From positions 124,001 through 188,000 of the forward strand of contig NZ_NFIZ01000004.1 of NCBI RefSeq assembly GCF_002159625.1: a DNA stretch of 64,000 nucleotides. The letters are read 5' to 3'. Shown here one piece after another: positions 18,774 to 27,417 of the stretch. Source of the stretch: Olsenella sp. An285. Lineage in GTDB: Bacteria > Actinomycetota > Coriobacteriia > Coriobacteriales > Atopobiaceae. Numbering within the stretch: the stretch's first letter is position 1; every line of letters starts with the position of its first letter. Both the position numbers and the translations under genes were made by a program. The notes under the pieces are model-generated. The model saw nothing but the letters and a program-made list of their open reading frames with translations, ran no database searches and was not told the DNA's origin.

Positions 18774-18871
18774 CCGTGGACCGCATAACAGAAACAGGCG
18801 TGAAACACTCATGTGAGAACCTATCTCGGACTATGAACTGACGGCCCCCGGAGAACCGTGGAGGTTTCTGC

Positions 18872-20212
18872 ATGAGCAGCGAGAAGGACATTGACTTCGT
18901 ACTGCGCACTGTCGAGAAGCGCGACATTCGTTTCGTGAGGCTCTGGTTCACCGACGTGCTCGGCAACCTCAAGTCCTTCGCGATTTCCCCGGAGGAGCTC
19001 GAGGAGGCCTTCGAGGAGGGCATCGGCTTCGACGGCTCGGCCGTGGACGGCTTCGCCTCCCTCGAGGAGTCCGACATGCTCGCGTTCCCGGACCCCGACA
19101 CCTTCGCGCTGCTCCCGTGGCGCCCCAAGGAGTCCGGCGTGGCGCGCGTGTTCTGCGACGTCTACACCCCGGCGCGCGAGCCCTTCGAGGGTGACCCGCG
19201 CCGCTGCCTCAAGAACGTCTTCGCCCACGCGGAGGAGAAGGGCTACGTTCCCAACGTCGGCCCCAAGATGGAGTACTTCTACTTCGACAACGACCTCGAT
19301 CCCGTGCCGCTGGACAACGCCGGCTACTTTGACCTCACCCCCATGGACACGGCCAACGACCTGCGTCGCCAGACCACCCTTACGCTCGAGAAGATGTCCA
19401 TTCCGGTGCAGTACTCCTATCACGCCGCAGGACCCTCCCAAAATGGTGTGGAGCTGCGCTTCACGGAGGCCGTGAGCTGCGCGGACAACATCATCACCGC
19501 GCGCCTGGTGATCAAGCAGGAGGCCGCGGCCCAGGGTATGTACGCCTCGTTCATGCCCAAGCCCATCGCCTCGGTGCCGGGCTCGGCCATGTTCCTCTAC
19601 CAGTCCCTGCTGGACACGCACGGCGAGAACCTCTTCTGGGCCCCCAAGGAGCACCACGAGGCGCACCTCTCCGACCTCGCCCAGCACTACGTCGCGGGCA
19701 TCCTCAAGTACGCCCCGGAGTTCACGCTGGTCACCAACCCCACCGTCAACTCCTACAAGCGCTTCATCTCCACCGGCGAGGTGCCCAACTACGCCACGTG
19801 GGGCCGCAAGAACCGCTCCGCCCTCGTGCGCGTGCCCACGCACAAGCCGGGCAAGCACATCGCAACGCGCATCGAGCTGCGCAGCCCGGACGCCACGGCC
19901 AACCCGTACCTTGCGCTCGCCGTCACCATCGCGGCCGGCCTGCGCGGCATCGAGGAGGGCCTGGACCTGCCGGAGGAGGTCGGCAACGAGACGCTGCAGC
20001 TCTCCGAGCGCGAGCTCGCGGCCCGCGGCATCGAGCGCCTGCCCCGCACCCTGGGCGAGGCGGTCGACCGCTTCGAGTCCTCCGAGCTCATGCGCGAGGT
20101 CCTCGGCGAGCACATTTTCGACTACCTGGTGCGCGAGAAGCGCCAGGAGTGGTACGAGTACTGCACCGCCGTCACGGACTGGGAGCGCGAGCACTACTAC
20201 GGCGGCTTCTAG
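18872..20212 (+). CDS. Glutamine synthetase-like protein lacking metal ligands
   Basis: 446 residues, co-linear with type I glutamine synthetases from FDGSAVDGF to the C-terminal WEREHYYGGF. NPTVNSYKR, MPKP and RIELRSPDATANPYL are conserved. The active site is not. Against the six metal ligands of Salmonella GlnA (E129, E131, E212, E220, H269, E357), the aligned residues are Lys132, Glu134, Ala185, Gly192, Phe241 and Glu335. Four of six are lost, including the His of GSGMH (here GSAMF). GGAGG precedes the ATG. It may be a pseudoenzyme with a binding or regulatory role, or use a different chemistry. It is transcribed alone and no nitrogen genes adjoin. Confidence 0.85.
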   Translation: MSSEKDIDFVLRTVEKRDIRFVRLWFTDVLGNLKSFAISPEELEEAFEEGIGFDGSAVDGFASLEESDMLAFPDPDTFALLPWRPKESGVARVFCDVYTPAREPFEGDPRRCLKNVFAHAEEKGYVPNVGPKMEYFYFDNDLDPVPLDNAGYFDLTPMDTANDLRRQTTLTLEKMSIPVQYSYHAAGPSQNGVELRFTEAVSCADNIITARLVIKQEAAAQGMYASFMPKPIASVPGSAMFLYQSLLDTHGENLFWAPKEHHEAHLSDLAQHYVAGILKYAPEFTLVTNPTVNSYKRFISTGEVPNYATWGRKNRSALVRVPTHKPGKHIATRIELRSPDATANPYLALAVTIAAGLRGIEEGLDLPEEVGNETLQLSERELAARGIERLPRTLGEAVDRFESSELMREVLGEHIFDYLVREKRQEWYEYCTAVTDWEREHYYGGF

Positions 20213-20271: not shown

Positions 20272-20308
20272 GCCGTCGGGATCGGCCGATCCCGACGGCT
20301 TCTCTTTT
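20272..20308 (+). terminator. Rho-independent terminator
   Basis: GCCGTCGGGATCGG and its complement form a perfect palindrome (20272-20299), followed by TTCTCTTTT. It lies 60 bases past the glutamine-synthetase-like gene. Confidence 0.9.
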
Positions 20309-20838: not shown

Positions 20839-21669
20839 ATGAAGCTCTCCAGCCGTTTTGCGGGCGGCCTTGCCGTCGCCTGCGCGCTAGCCGTGACTAT
20901 TGCGGGATGCAGCGGGGGAGGGCAGACAAGCACCCCCTCCACCACCGACGACGCCACCGAGGCGTCCTACACCCTCGTCGAGGACGGCACGATCACCGTT
21001 GCCTCCGACCTGGCCAACGCCCCGCTCGACTTCGTGGACGAGAAGACCGGCGAGGCCCAGGGCTTCGAGATCGACCTCATCAACGCCGTAGCCGACAAGC
21101 TCGGCGTCGAGTGCGAGGTCCTGCCCGCGATGAAGTTCGACACCATCGTCCCGCTCATCGAGCAGGGCGGCAAGGCCGACGTGGGCGTCTCCAACATCAC
21201 CATCACCGACGCCCGCATGGAGCAGGTGGACTTCACCGACTCCTACATGGACTCCAACCAGGGCCTCGTGACGCTTGCGGCAGATGCGGACGTGACCGAG
21301 GACGACCTCAACGTCGAGGGGACCAAGATCGCCGTGCAGGCCGGCACCACCGGCGCCTCCTGGGCCGAGGAGAACCTGCCCAACGCCGAGATCGTGGCGC
21401 TCGACGACCCCGTGGTTGCCGTGACGGGCGTGCAGACCGGGCTCTACGCCGCCGCCGTGGCGGACCTGCCCGTTATGACCTACCTCTGCTCCAACTCGTT
21501 CACCGACTGCGCGGTGGCAATCGAGATCCCCACCGGCGAGCAGTACGGCATCGCCGTAAACAAGGACAACCCCGGCCTCACCGAGGCCATCAACGGCGCC
21601 CTGGCCGAGCTCGAGGAGGAGGGCTACATCTCCGAGCTCGAGGTCAAGTGGCTCGGCGCCGAGCTCTAG
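20839..21669 (+). CDS. Amino-acid ABC transporter substrate-binding lipoprotein (first)
   Basis: 276 residues. A type II signal peptide ends at the lipobox (VTIAGC, Cys about residue 22), followed by a Ser/Thr-rich linker and the bacterial SBP family 3 fold: GFEIDLINAVADKLG, FDTIVPLIEQGGKADVGVSNITIT, and EIPTGEQYGIAVNKDNPGL near the end. It captures a polar amino acid or a related compound outside the cell. First gene of a four-gene transporter operon. GGGGGAAGGACC precedes the ATG. Confidence 0.92.
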   Translation: MKLSSRFAGGLAVACALAVTIAGCSGGGQTSTPSTTDDATEASYTLVEDGTITVASDLANAPLDFVDEKTGEAQGFEIDLINAVADKLGVECEVLPAMKFDTIVPLIEQGGKADVGVSNITITDARMEQVDFTDSYMDSNQGLVTLAADADVTEDDLNVEGTKIAVQAGTTGASWAEENLPNAEIVALDDPVVAVTGVQTGLYAAAVADLPVMTYLCSNSFTDCAVAIEIPTGEQYGIAVNKDNPGLTEAINGALAELEEEGYISELEVKWLGAEL

Positions 21670-21674
21670 CAACC

Positions 21675-21709
21675 TAACATGACAAAGGGACAGTCCCTTT
21701 GTCATGTTA
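21675..21709. repeat. GGGACAGTCCC palindrome inside the ABC operon
   Basis: 16-base arms around cag: taacatgacaaaggga (21675-21690) and complement (21694-21709). It lies between the two binding-protein genes. Such a hairpin could protect the upstream mRNA and change the relative yield of the two proteins. Confidence 0.85.
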
Positions 21710-21737
21710 TGTGACAAACGATACGGGAGGAAATGAA

Positions 21738-22580
21738 ATGACCAGCATGAACAGGCGCAACTTCGTCGCCACCCTCGGCATCGCCGGCACCGCGCTGCTC
21801 GCCGGCTGCAACGGCTCCGAGGAGGCCACCCAGACCACCGACGACGCCCAGACCACCGACGACTCCGCCGAGGAGGCCTCCTACACCCTCGTGAAGGAAG
21901 GCGTGCTCACCAACGTGGCGGAGCTCGGCTTCTCGCCCTTCGAGTACATCGACGAGGACGGCAACACCGTGGGCTTTGACGTCGACCTCTCCAACGCCAT
22001 CGCCGAGAAGATGGGCCTCACCTGCGAGTGGCTGCCCAACCAGGCCTTCGACACCCTGGTTCCCACCATCAAGCAGGGCGGTAAGGCCGACATCTCCATC
22101 GCCGGCGTCACCATCACCGACGAGCGCCTCGAGGACGTGGACTTCTCCGACCCCTACCTCAACTCCAACCAGGCCCTCATCGTAGCCGCCAGCTCCGACT
22201 ACGCCACCGAGGACCTCGACGCCGAGGACATCCAGATCGCCTGCCAGACCGGCACCACCGGCGACGCCTGGATCCAGGAGAACCTGCCCAACGCCACGCG
22301 CGTGCCGCTGGCTGACGTCACCGCCGGCATGATGGGCGTCTCCACGGGCTCCTACCAGGCCATGGTCATCGACCTGCCCGTCGCCCAGAACATGCTCGCG
22401 CAGTCCTTCTCGGACCTCACGATTCTCGAGGAGATCCCCACCGGCGAGCAGTACGGCATCGCGGTCTCCTACGACAACCCGGGCCTCAAGGACGCCATCA
22501 ACGCCGCCCTGGCCGAGATCGAGTCCGATGGCACGATGGACGAGCTCAAGCAGAAGTGGTTCGGCACCACCGACATCTAG
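21738..22580 (+). CDS. Amino-acid ABC transporter substrate-binding lipoprotein (second, Tat signal)
   Basis: 280 residues, related to the preceding protein along its whole length (shared EIPTGEQYGIAV and GGKAD motifs). The signal differs: MNRRNFVATLGIAGTALLAGC carries twin arginines and a lipobox, so Tat export and lipidation are likely. GGGAGG precedes the ATG at 21738. The pair probably arose by duplication and offers two specificities for one membrane pore. Confidence 0.92.
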   Translation: MTSMNRRNFVATLGIAGTALLAGCNGSEEATQTTDDAQTTDDSAEEASYTLVKEGVLTNVAELGFSPFEYIDEDGNTVGFDVDLSNAIAEKMGLTCEWLPNQAFDTLVPTIKQGGKADISIAGVTITDERLEDVDFSDPYLNSNQALIVAASSDYATEDLDAEDIQIACQTGTTGDAWIQENLPNATRVPLADVTAGMMGVSTGSYQAMVIDLPVAQNMLAQSFSDLTILEEIPTGEQYGIAVSYDNPGLKDAINAALAEIESDGTMDELKQKWFGTTDI

Positions 22581-22704: not shown

Positions 22705-24028
22705 ATGCAGCACAGACGGGGGGCTCTTCTCGTTGCCCTCGCGCTGGCGCTGACGGGCGTCTTTGCCACGACGCTCGCGGTGCCGCAGCCCGCCCAGGCG
22801 CTCACCACCGAGAAGGCCACCGCCCGCCCCAACGAGGACGGCGGCGACGGCGTCATCGGCGGTCTGGACACGCGCCTCACCTGGGAGGGCACGGTCGAGC
22901 CTGGCGAGGAGGTCACCTCGGTCACGCTGACCCTGCCGGAGGGCTCCACGTTCGACGGCTCCACGACGCGCATCACCGCGCTCGAGGGCCTCAAGCGCAT
23001 GGACGTCACCGGCGAGGCCGCCCCCGCGGGCGAGTCCATCACGGTGAGCTTTGACCAGCCCGTCCCCGAGGGGTCGCTCCTGCGCCTTGAGATCACGAAC
23101 ATGCAGTTCCCCTCGGAGGGAGGGGAGTGCGTCGTCTCCGGAACCTATGTGAGCGGCGGTGAGACCCACGACCTCACGGCATCCAAGCCCATCGAGACCA
23201 TCGCCAACACCCCGCTGCAGTCGATCGTCAACTGGCTCGACGAGCAGCCCTGGGTGGAGGCGTGGAACTCCAACCAGTTCCTCGGCATGTTCCTCAAGCC
23301 CCAGCTGCTCGTGACGTCCTTCTCGTCCCTCGCGCCGGGCTGGATCTTGTGCCTGGGCATCGTGGTGGCTGCCTACCCGTTTGCCATTGCGCTCGGCCTG
23401 CTGTTCGCCATGCTCAAGATCTCCAAGTGGCGAATCCTGCGTGCCGTCGCGGTGATCTACATCAACGTGCTGCGAGGCACGCCGCTCTTCCTGCAGATCT
23501 ACATCATGTTCTTTGGCCTGCCGATGCTCAACATCAACATCGACAACAACATCCTGGGCATCATCGTCATGGCTATCAACTCCTCGGCCTACCTGGCCGA
23601 GATCTTCCGCGCGGGCATCCAGTCCATACCGCAGGGTCAGTACGAGGCTGCGAGCTCGCTCGGCATGAACTACGTGCAGACGATGTTCACCATCATCCTT
23701 CCGCAGACCGTGCGCCGCGTGATCCCCACGGTGACGAGCGACTTCATCACCGCGTTCAAGGACACCTCGCTGCTCTCCTCGGTGGGTGTCATGGAGCTCA
23801 TGATGTTCTCCAAGAACCTCACCACGGTCTCGGGCAACATCACGCCGTACGTGGCCGCCGGCATCTTCTACCTCATCGTCACGCTGCCTCTGATCAAGGT
23901 CGTGAGCATCGTGGAGGAGAACATCGCCCGTTCCGAGCGCGGGGGCGGCCCGCGCCCCAAGCGCCGCGCCGACGTCGCGGACAACGCCGCCGCACAGATT
24001 GCCGCCCAGTCCAAGGAGGTCGCCGCCG

Positions 24029-24039
<11 letters not shown>
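22705..24039 (+). CDS. Amino-acid ABC transporter permease with N-terminal secreted domain
   Basis: 444 residues, roughly twice a normal family permease. Residues 1-33 are a signal peptide ([20 protein letters not shown], ending AQA). Residues about 35-175 form an extracytoplasmic, beta-rich, acidic domain ([34 protein letters not shown]). Residues about 200-410 are a His/Glu/Gln-type permease with [20 protein letters not shown] and the ATPase-contact loop [27 protein letters not shown] precedes the ATG. The extra domain may dock the two binding proteins. It overlaps the ATPase gene by 11 bases. Confidence 0.9.
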
Positions 24040-24892
<853 letters not shown>

Positions 24893-24989: not shown

Positions 24990-25030
24990 ACAACGCCCCC
25001 GTATCATTCGGGGGCGTTGTGCTAATCTTT
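24990..25030 (+). terminator. Rho-independent terminator of the ABC operon
   Basis: A perfect 12-base stem acaacgcccccg (24990-25001) with its complement at 25009-25020, followed by gctaatctttt. Confidence 0.82.
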
Positions 25031-25066: not shown

Positions 25067-25741
25067 ATGCACCACAAGAACATCCTGCTCATATCCGCCA
25101 CCACGCGCCTGCACGATCGCATGCGCGAGCTCTCGCATGCCATTGACGTCTCCATCGCTCTCGCGACCGAGGAGACCTTCTCCCAGGCCGTCTCGTCCGG
25201 CCACGAGTTCGACCTCGTCATCCTCGACGGCGAGGGCATGAGCCAGGACATCCTCAACGCGGTGGACTCGTTCGTGGCGGAGAACGGCTTCGTCCCCATG
25301 CTGCTCGTCCAGGACCCCGACAAGCTCTCGACCCTGCGCATGCCCATGCAGGGCAAGAACGACTTCATCCTCTCCACCGCTGGCGTCGCCGAGTTCGAGG
25401 TGCGCTGCTCGCTTCTGCTGTGGCCCGGCGAGGAGAGCGCGCCCGCGGACATCGTGACCGTGGACAACATGACCATCAACCTGGCCACCTACCAGGTCTA
25501 CATCGACGAGAAGCCCGTTGACTTGACCCTCATGGAGTACTCGCTGCTCTCCTTCCTGGCCACCCACCCCTCCCGCGCCTACTCGCGCGAGACGCTCCTC
25601 CATCGCGTGTGGGGCTTCGAGTACTGTGGCGGCACGCGCACGGTGGACGTGCACATCCGTCGCGTGCGCTCCAAGGTTGGCCCCCAGGTGGCGAGCCACA
25701 TCGTCACCATCCGCGGCGTGGGCTACCTCTTCCGCGTGTAG
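25067..25741 (+). CDS. Atypical OmpR-type response regulator
   Basis: 224 residues. The N-terminal receiver-like domain keeps Asp54 (FDLVILDGEG) but lacks the acidic pair after beta-1 (here ILLISATTRL) and has no clear conserved Lys. It may therefore not be phosphorylated in the usual way. The C-terminal winged helix is standard: VDLTLMEYSLLSFLATHPSR, YSRETLLHRVWG, RTVDVHIRRVRSKVG, IRGVGYLFRV. GGGAGG precedes the ATG. No sensor kinase gene adjoins. Confidence 0.88.
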   Translation: MHHKNILLISATTRLHDRMRELSHAIDVSIALATEETFSQAVSSGHEFDLVILDGEGMSQDILNAVDSFVAENGFVPMLLVQDPDKLSTLRMPMQGKNDFILSTAGVAEFEVRCSLLLWPGEESAPADIVTVDNMTINLATYQVYIDEKPVDLTLMEYSLLSFLATHPSRAYSRETLLHRVWGFEYCGGTRTVDVHIRRVRSKVGPQVASHIVTIRGVGYLFRV

Positions 25742-25914: not shown

Positions 25915-27417
25915 ATGAGCGACTATCCGTTTGACTCCTCCAACCAGGGCTCCCAGAGCCCCCAGAGCCCGTACGAGCGCACCGACGGCGCCCACGCGGG
26001 CCAGTCTGGCTCCGGCAGCCCCTCGAACGGCTCCTCCGGCAGGGTCCCGCCCTCGCCCTTCGAGTCCGTCCCCGGCTTTGATGACGACGCCCAGGGTGCC
26101 GGCCAGACCCGGAGCGGTCATGCCCAGCACGCCCAGACCCAGGCGCAGCCCAAGGTGAGCGTCGAGGGCCCGCTGGCGCCCGCGCCCGAGCCCCCCAAGG
26201 AGAAGAAGCCCCGTCCCGGCCTGCACGCTGCGCTCGCCGGGCTCCTGGGTGGCGTCGTGGGCGCGGCGGCGCTCACGGGCGCGCTCTATGCTGGCGGCGT
26301 GATCGGCCCCACCACCGTCGTCCAGCAGACCGGGGCCTCCGGTCAGCAGGTGACCATCAACCCCAGCGATGAGGACACCACCGTCGCCAACGCCGTCGCC
26401 GCGAAGGCGCTGCCCTCCGTGGCCACCGTCTACTGCACCTACGCCAACGGCGAGGGCATGGGCTCAGGCGTCATCTACGACACCGAGGGCAACATCATCA
26501 CCAACAACCACGTGATCGAGAACGCGGAGAGCATCACCGTCACCATCAACGGCAAGAGCTACAGCGCCTCCCTCGTGGGCACCGACCCCTCGAGCGACGT
26601 CGCCGTGGTCAAGGCGGACCTCCAGGGCGACTCCGTGACCCCCATGGAGATCGGCAACTCCGATGACCTGCAGGTGGGCGACTGGGTCATGTCCGTGGGC
26701 AGCCCCTTCGGCCTCGAGAACTCCGTCTCCCAGGGCATCGTCTCCGCGCTCTCGCGCAACACCCTGCTCGAGAACTCCGAGGGCAACACCCTCTACACCA
26801 ACCTCATCCAGACCGACGCCACCATCAACCCCGGCAACTCCGGCGGCGCGCTCGTTGACGCCGAGGGCAAGCTCGTGGGCATCTGCACGCTCTTCTCGTC
26901 CGACACCGAGAGCTTCGCGGGCATCGGCTATGCCATCCCGGGCAACTACGCCACGGAGATCGCAGACAAGATCATCGCGGGCGAGACGGTCACCCATGCC
27001 TACATCGGCCTCACGATGCAGACCGTGAACGCGCAGAACGCCTTCCGCAACAACCTGTCTGTCGACCAGGGCGCCTACGTGGTCGAGGTTGCCGAGGGCG
27101 GCCCCGCCGCCGCGGCCGGCATCCAGACGGGTGACGTCATCACCAAGATCGGCGACGAGAGCATCTCCTCCGCCGACGCGGCCATCCTGGCCGTGCGCTC
27201 CCACAGCGAGGGCGAGACCGTGCCCGTGACCGTCATGCGCGGTGACCAGGAGATGACCTTCGACGTGACGCTGGGCTCCGACGAGGCGCTCCAGGAGCAG
27301 CAGGAGCAGCAGAACCAGACCGTTAACGTCAACGGCCAGGACGTCTCCCTCGAGGACCTCATCGACCTCTATCAGCAGTACCAGGAGCAGCAGTACAGCC
27401 CCTTCGGCGGACGCTAG
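25915..27417 (+). CDS. htrA: HtrA/DegP-like serine protease with PDZ domain
   Basis: 500 residues. A long Pro/Ser/Gln-rich cytoplasmic N-terminus (about 1-100) precedes one membrane helix (LAGLLGGVVGAAALTGALYA). The outward-facing trypsin-like domain has the triad His199 (NNHVIEN), Asp228 (SDVAVVKAD) and Ser309 (GNSGGALVD). A PDZ domain (about 375-465) and a Gln-rich tail follow. It degrades or refolds misfolded envelope proteins. GAAGGAAGG precedes the ATG. The gene lies downstream of the atypical regulator but is separated from it by a terminator. Confidence 0.95.
   Translation: MSDYPFDSSNQGSQSPQSPYERTDGAHAGQSGSGSPSNGSSGRVPPSPFESVPGFDDDAQGAGQTRSGHAQHAQTQAQPKVSVEGPLAPAPEPPKEKKPRPGLHAALAGLLGGVVGAAALTGALYAGGVIGPTTVVQQTGASGQQVTINPSDEDTTVANAVAAKALPSVATVYCTYANGEGMGSGVIYDTEGNIITNNHVIENAESITVTINGKSYSASLVGTDPSSDVAVVKADLQGDSVTPMEIGNSDDLQVGDWVMSVGSPFGLENSVSQGIVSALSRNTLLENSEGNTLYTNLIQTDATINPGNSGGALVDAEGKLVGICTLFSSDTESFAGIGYAIPGNYATEIADKIIAGETVTHAYIGLTMQTVNAQNAFRNNLSVDQGAYVVEVAEGGPAAAAGIQTGDVITKIGDESISSADAAILAVRSHSEGETVPVTVMRGDQEMTFDVTLGSDEALQEQQEQQNQTVNVNGQDVSLEDLIDLYQQYQEQQYSPFGGR

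Follow-up and report, generated by a model that had tools for sequence, protein, structure and literature searches.

This locus raises the question of what a full-length homologue of glutamine synthetase (GS) may do in the cell once most of its metal-binding residues have been replaced. The gene lies in a 64,000-nucleotide stretch of an Olsenella sp. An285 contig, hereafter the window, together with the following features.

18791–18806, forward strand: GlnR-box-like element GAAAC-N6-GAAAC (position conserved in 49/56 orthologous promoters)
18814–18822, forward strand: putative extended -10 element (pattern TG-n-nAnnnT, with a conserved spacing to the box)
18872–20212, forward strand: metal-less GSI-type glutamine synthetase homologue, 446 aa (open reading frame, Pfam domains, alignment and AlphaFold2 model)
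20272–20299, forward strand: intrinsic terminator after the GS-like gene
20839–21669, forward strand: polar amino-acid ABC transporter, solute-binding protein 1 (open reading frame; position conserved in Atopobiaceae; family by sequence inspection)
21699–22580, forward strand: polar amino-acid ABC transporter, solute-binding protein 2 (open reading frame; conserved position; family by sequence inspection)
22705–24039, forward strand: polar amino-acid ABC transporter, permease (open reading frame; conserved position; family by sequence inspection)
23999–24892, forward strand: polar amino-acid ABC transporter, ATPase (open reading frame; conserved position; family by sequence inspection)
24990–25020, forward strand: intrinsic terminator separating the transporter from the glnR-like gene
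25067–25741, forward strand: GlnR-like OmpR-family regulator of 224 aa with an unconserved phosphorylation pocket; candidate partner of the GS-like protein

Metal ligands and the substrate pocket

The open reading frame is uninterrupted, and its product matches the Pfam domains Gln-synt_C (351.9 bits) and Gln-synt_N (104.9 bits). An AlphaFold2 model of the window protein has the complete GS fold (mean pLDDT 91.2) and matches class I GS structures over its full length, with a TM of 0.94 to Methanosarcina GS. The intact frame, the strong fold signatures and the strong terminator described in an earlier sequence-only reading were thereby all confirmed, the last two by the domain matches together with the predicted structure and by the terminator at 20272–20299. 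The score against the NCBIfam GlnA equivalog TIGR00653 is 419.5 bits, just below the cut-off of 429.15, while the Slackia orthologue with an intact site scores 463.1.

Ligand positions were read from an alignment to E. coli K-12 GlnA, in which the reference residues were verified at their literature positions. The residues corresponding to E129, E131, E212, E220, H269 and E357 are K132, E134, A185, G192, F241 and E335. Substitutions (E129K, E212A, E220G and H269F) have removed four of the six metal ligands, exactly as had been claimed, and E131 (E134) and E357 (E335) are the sole survivors. A shifted alignment that would restore the ligands is ruled out by the hairpin of the protein, which aligns without gaps (SYHAAGPSQNGVELRF versus SHHEVAPSQHEIDFRF). 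No substitute Glu or His was found near the lost ligands in this gap-free alignment, nor any alternative Glu or His at the metal positions, the observation that the sequence-only reading had itself named as able to overturn its proposal.

The loss extends to a diverse set of 56 metal-less sequences, comprising 41 from Atopobiaceae, the family of the window, and 15 from Coriobacteriaceae. None of the 56 orthologues retains E212, E220 or H269, and the replacements vary (A/S/G/T, G/A/S/C and F/Y/L/M, respectively). E129 has become Lys or Arg in 28/41 Atopobiaceae and is retained in 11/15 Coriobacteriaceae, which leaves the n1 site with E131 alone and the n2 site with E357, with or without E129. 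The residues that hold glutamate and the ATP phosphates in known GS, namely D50, H211, S273 and K352 and the five substrate-binding arginines R321, R339, R344, R355 and R359, are invariant in 56/56 metal-less proteins, as is E357. The metals are therefore gone while the ligand pocket is retained. Of the 111 columns conserved to 95 % or more among 62 intact relatives, 97 are unchanged in 90 % or more of the metal-less sequences, and the 14 changed columns lie mostly on the two strands bearing the lost ligands (residues 176–194 and 237–241).

Two further changes bear on the mechanism. In Bacillus GS, Arg62 and Glu304 form the glutamine-feedback clamp (PMC9249791). Arg62 is retained in only three of the 56 metal-less proteins, and the flap glutamate equivalent to Glu304 is gone in 14/15 Coriobacteriaceae, so that a glutamine signal of the Bacillus type cannot be taken for granted; any reading of glutamine must differ in detail from the Bacillus version.

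Distribution and ancestry of the metal-less proteins

The GS-like protein occurs in 130/140 genomes of the window's family (99/101 of the high-quality ones), almost always at full length, and in 239/247 high-quality genomes of the order. Groups were named via their relatives, with Olsenella standing for Atopobiaceae, Collinsella for Coriobacteriaceae and Slackia for Eggerthellaceae. The 26 Eggerthellaceae orthologues keep E212 (26/26), E220 (26/26) and H269 (25/26), and all six ligands are kept in 17/17 sequences from other Coriobacteriia families. The tree proposed in the sequence-only reading showed that the substitutions do define a conserved clade: the 56 metal-less sequences form a single group with a support of 100 and a long stem, which is still recovered when the active-site columns are removed. 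Within this clade dN/dS ranges from 0.04 to 0.26, in the same range as among intact relatives. The loss of the metal site is thus a conserved state under purifying selection in one clade. A recent or local loss is ruled out by the single loss spanning two families, and a pseudogene by the dN/dS values and the column conservation.

Several sequences in the survey depart from these patterns. Two proteins from another family of the order (L115 and L118) keep four of the six ligands, with E129 changed to A/T and E357 to D; they branch near the metal-less clade and possibly represent an intermediate state. One genome (G044; L044 and L072) carries three GS-like copies, of which two are partial and two lie in tandem. 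Two others (G080 and G081; L064 and L065) encode an extra, distant GS homologue of 34–40 % identity, which in L065 has ligand changes of its own (RNEEHV). Actinobacterial-looking GS genes of 51–52 % identity on the contigs of an Omnitrophota MAG (L129) and a Chloroflexi MAG (L131) reflect either horizontal transfer or a binning error.

A search for a second glnA, which had also been suggested from the sequence, revealed a separate and intact enzyme: the sole other GS in the window's genome is a GSIII of 696 aa, the Glu and His ligand motifs of which are intact by inspection. GSIII is present in 30/30 tested genomes with the GS-like gene and also in 9/9 checked genomes without it.

The proposed GlnR-like partner and the promoter element

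In Atopobiaceae, including the window, the gene order is GS-like gene, binding protein(s), permease, ATPase, glnR and HtrA. The GlnR-like gene lies downstream on the same strand in 38/40 Atopobiaceae loci, with the transporter in between in 35; in the two exceptions it sits on another contig (G022) or on the opposite flank of the GS-like gene, at a distance of about 1.4 kb (G014). It is likewise downstream on the same strand in 15/15 Coriobacteriaceae and 26/26 Eggerthellaceae, often overlapping or only a few bases away, and the GS–glnR pair is found with 13/13 orthologues from other Coriobacteriia families. Other GS paralogues have no such neighbour (0/4 checked). Two loci of the window's genus (L237 and L238) carry a different transporter between the GS-like gene and glnR, with a permease only 45 % identical, so the transporter slot seems to have been refilled. 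Behind glnR, Atopobiaceae as well as Collinsella encode a protease of the HtrA/DegP type (25915–27417 in the window; 10218–11717 in L126).

The regulator carries a Trans_reg_C DNA-binding domain in 14/14 members, and its top sequence matches among solved structures are the GlnR chains of 8hig, 8hih and 8hml, which by their titles come from Saccharopolyspora erythraea and Mycobacterium tuberculosis. Divergence is strong in the N-terminal domain, and the phosphorylation pocket is not conserved; GlnR_1st is matched in 4/14 members at E up to 0.01, with two of the scores (19.2 and 22.4 bits) below the Pfam cut-off of 27. An ANTAR-type regulator was considered for the Collinsella neighbour and rejected, since this protein is also OmpR/GlnR-like.

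The two genes are also gained and lost together. When GlnR was scored by a GlnR profile in genomes at least 90 % complete, 17 had both genes, nine had neither, three had only the GS gene and none had only GlnR. GlnR is thus present in 17/20 near-complete genomes with the GS-like gene versus 0/9 without it (p = 2e-5, uncorrected for kinship). The three genomes with GS alone encode a GS of the intact type and lack this GlnR. GlnR occurs without the GS-like gene in two genomes of lower completeness, in both cases on contigs that are possibly cut. PII is absent from eight genomes that carry the GS–GlnR pair (G057, G131, G002, G018, G023, G163, G211 and G230), which rules it out as the only sensor and means that it cannot be the general input.

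The promoters provide a further link. A GWAAC-N6-GWAAC element (last base C or T) precedes 49/56 metal-less GS-like genes, compared with a shuffled mean of about 0.2; it lies about 82 bases ahead of the start, and its spacing to the extended -10 element is constant. The window's copy is the single match in the 64 kb, with 0.03 expected. Published GlnR boxes read gTnAc-n6-GaAAc and t/gTAAC-n6-Gc/aAAC (PMC10704036), and the element, being of the same kind, is a putative GlnR site. GSIII promoters are enriched for the box (8/28 above the 1 % threshold), with the window's own GSIII promoter just below it (10.0 versus 10.2) and a hit also in one promoter of a genome that lacks GlnR, while control promoters exceed the threshold in 1/16 (gpmA), 0/34 (HtrA) and 0/35 (permease) cases. 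Scores above it were obtained for 4/38 promoters of glnR itself and 5/35 of the first transporter gene, too weak a signal for the transporter promoter to be a clear GlnR target. The terminators at 20272–20299 and 24990–25020 indicate that the GS-like gene, the transporter and glnR are separate units in the window, so the locus is better described as a conserved gene neighbourhood than as a single operon. No Rfam family reached its gathering score for a riboswitch or glnA RNA in the window.

A candidate nitrogen sensor and its alternatives

Of the options left by the sequence-only reading, a regulatory pseudoenzyme or ligand sensor is favoured by the conserved clade, the purifying selection and the separate GSIII, as well as by the link to GlnR in position, co-occurrence and the GlnR-box-like promoter element; an enzyme of different chemistry gained no positive support. 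As far as can be judged from sequence comparisons, the conserved GS-fold protein is probably a pseudoenzyme that provides the nitrogen-status input of the OmpR-type regulator GlnR. Its ancestor may have been an intact GSI-alpha/GlnA2-like enzyme in a GS–glnR gene pair across the Coriobacteriia, which would have made glutamine and reported nitrogen status to GlnR in a trigger-enzyme circuit, the intact state presumably still found in most of the class. The common ancestor of Atopobiaceae and Coriobacteriaceae would have relied on GSIII to assimilate ammonium, and its paired GS would have lost its catalytic metals but kept its fold and the arginines for glutamate/glutamine and nucleotide. Occupancy by ligand (glutamine and/or glutamate with nucleotide) could then change the conformation of the GS oligomer, one state of which would bind GlnR and alter its dimerisation or DNA binding, and GlnR would act at the boxes ahead of the GS-like gene and, in part, of the GSIII gene. 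Catalytic inactivity, ligand binding, physical contact with GlnR and the direction of the response are what we infer here. The retention of pocket, partner and box through the catalytic loss fits a sensor, not a relic or a free-standing enzyme.

The protein might instead regulate or stabilize an enzyme or transporter, such as GSIII or the neighbouring transporter, with the link to glnR reflecting shared regulation. The transporter does adjoin the GS-like gene in 35/40 Atopobiaceae loci, GSIII is always present alongside the protein, and the promoter boxes could mean co-regulation only. Nevertheless, the occurrence of GSIII in all nine genomes devoid of the GS-like gene indicates that it is independent of this protein, Coriobacteriaceae have glnR directly adjacent and no adjoining transporter, and the presence or absence of the gene is tracked by GlnR rather than GSIII, all of which makes this explanation unlikely.

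The retained nucleotide and amino-acid site might also serve a different reaction, such as that of a ligase or hydrolase working metal-free, with one metal or with Lys132 in place of a metal. An enzyme of this kind would account for the invariance of the phosphate- and glutamate-binding arginines, D50 and E357; the Lys or Arg at E129 in Atopobiaceae could replace the metal charge, and most Coriobacteriaceae keep the glutamate itself. We consider such an enzyme quite unlikely, given that both metal sites are depleted, the variable replacements are unlike those of a new catalytic centre, the flap glutamate has also gone in Coriobacteriaceae and no conserved biosynthetic partner gene lies nearby. 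The loss of catalytic residues, and the three copies with two partial in a single genome, might also suggest a functionless relic in slow decay, a highly improbable explanation for a protein that is full length in nearly all of 130 genomes, evolves under constraint and has a conserved promoter element and partner.

The proposed sensor resembles the trigger-enzyme circuit of Bacilli, in which a GSI-alpha GlnA is encoded beside a nitrogen transcription factor, the MerR-type GlnR or TnrA (PMC9249791). GSI-alpha structures share 40–44 % sequence identity with the window protein, at a TM of about 0.93. The gene adjacency expected of trigger enzymes is direct in Coriobacteriaceae, Eggerthellaceae and class-level relatives and spaced by the transporter in Atopobiaceae. 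However, the GS of Bacilli is catalytic and reports by glutamine feedback inhibition via Arg62/Glu304 (PMC9249791), while every metal-less member lacks three of the six ligands and mostly Arg62 as well. The regulators also differ, that of Bacilli being of the MerR type with an autoinhibitory C-terminal tail and the partner described here being of the OmpR type and unrelated to the MerR-type GlnR. Loss of activity in a GS fold has a parallel in lengsin, a GS-like protein of the vertebrate lens without GS activity, as is proposed for the window protein; lengsin is nonetheless eukaryotic and structural in role, has no known regulator partner and represents an unrelated loss.

The nearest homologues beyond the class are mostly actinobacterial GS of the GlnA2 type (Rv2222c/SCO2241) with 48–53 % identity. 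In contrast to the window protein, the surveyed relatives have all six ligands (11/11), and the flanks examined contained no glnR. In Cellulomonas the gene adjoins glnE, which fits the setting of glnA2 in mycobacteria. The GlnA2 of S. coelicolor is active as a gamma-glutamylpolyamine synthetase (PMC8998196). In M. smegmatis, glnA2 is essential but can be deleted under glnR overexpression, L-, D- and iso-glutamine do not rescue its loss, and the authors raised the possibility that GlnR requires GlnA2 for its function (PMC6142876), which provides independent support for a GS–GlnR sensor. The GlnR-like proteins resemble the OmpR-type GlnR of actinomycetes in their best structure matches, their unconserved phosphorylation pocket and the kind of DNA box, although the described GlnR is an orphan and the one studied here has a GS neighbour. 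According to a 2023 review, the signals and kinases of GlnR are unknown and no sensor gene is co-localized with glnR (PMC10704036). It may be, at what we regard as even odds, that the actinobacterial OmpR-type GlnR receives its signal from a GS-fold, GlnA2-like partner and not from a kinase, with a pure metal-less sensor in Atopobiaceae and Coriobacteriaceae, and that the same link underlies the mycobacterial glnA2–glnR interaction.

The pairing of a GS with a transcription factor is already known from the MerR-type regulators of Bacilli (PMC9249791). In the open-licence literature, searches for an inactive bacterial GS or a GS in Coriobacteriia yielded no prior account of this system, and neither a GS partner for an OmpR-type GlnR nor a whole clade in which that GS is metal-less was found. 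GlnR stands at the head of nitrogen regulation in actinobacteria, among them Mycobacterium and Streptomyces, and how it senses nitrogen is an open question (PMC10704036). A GS that is paired with glnR throughout the class, and has been stripped of its metal site in two families yet kept, offers a concrete candidate for its nitrogen sensor. The separation of sensing from catalysis allows the hypothesis to be tested free of the metabolic disturbance that a GS knock-out would bring. Moreover, the genes annotated as glutamine synthetase in Atopobiaceae and Collinsella may not make glutamine.
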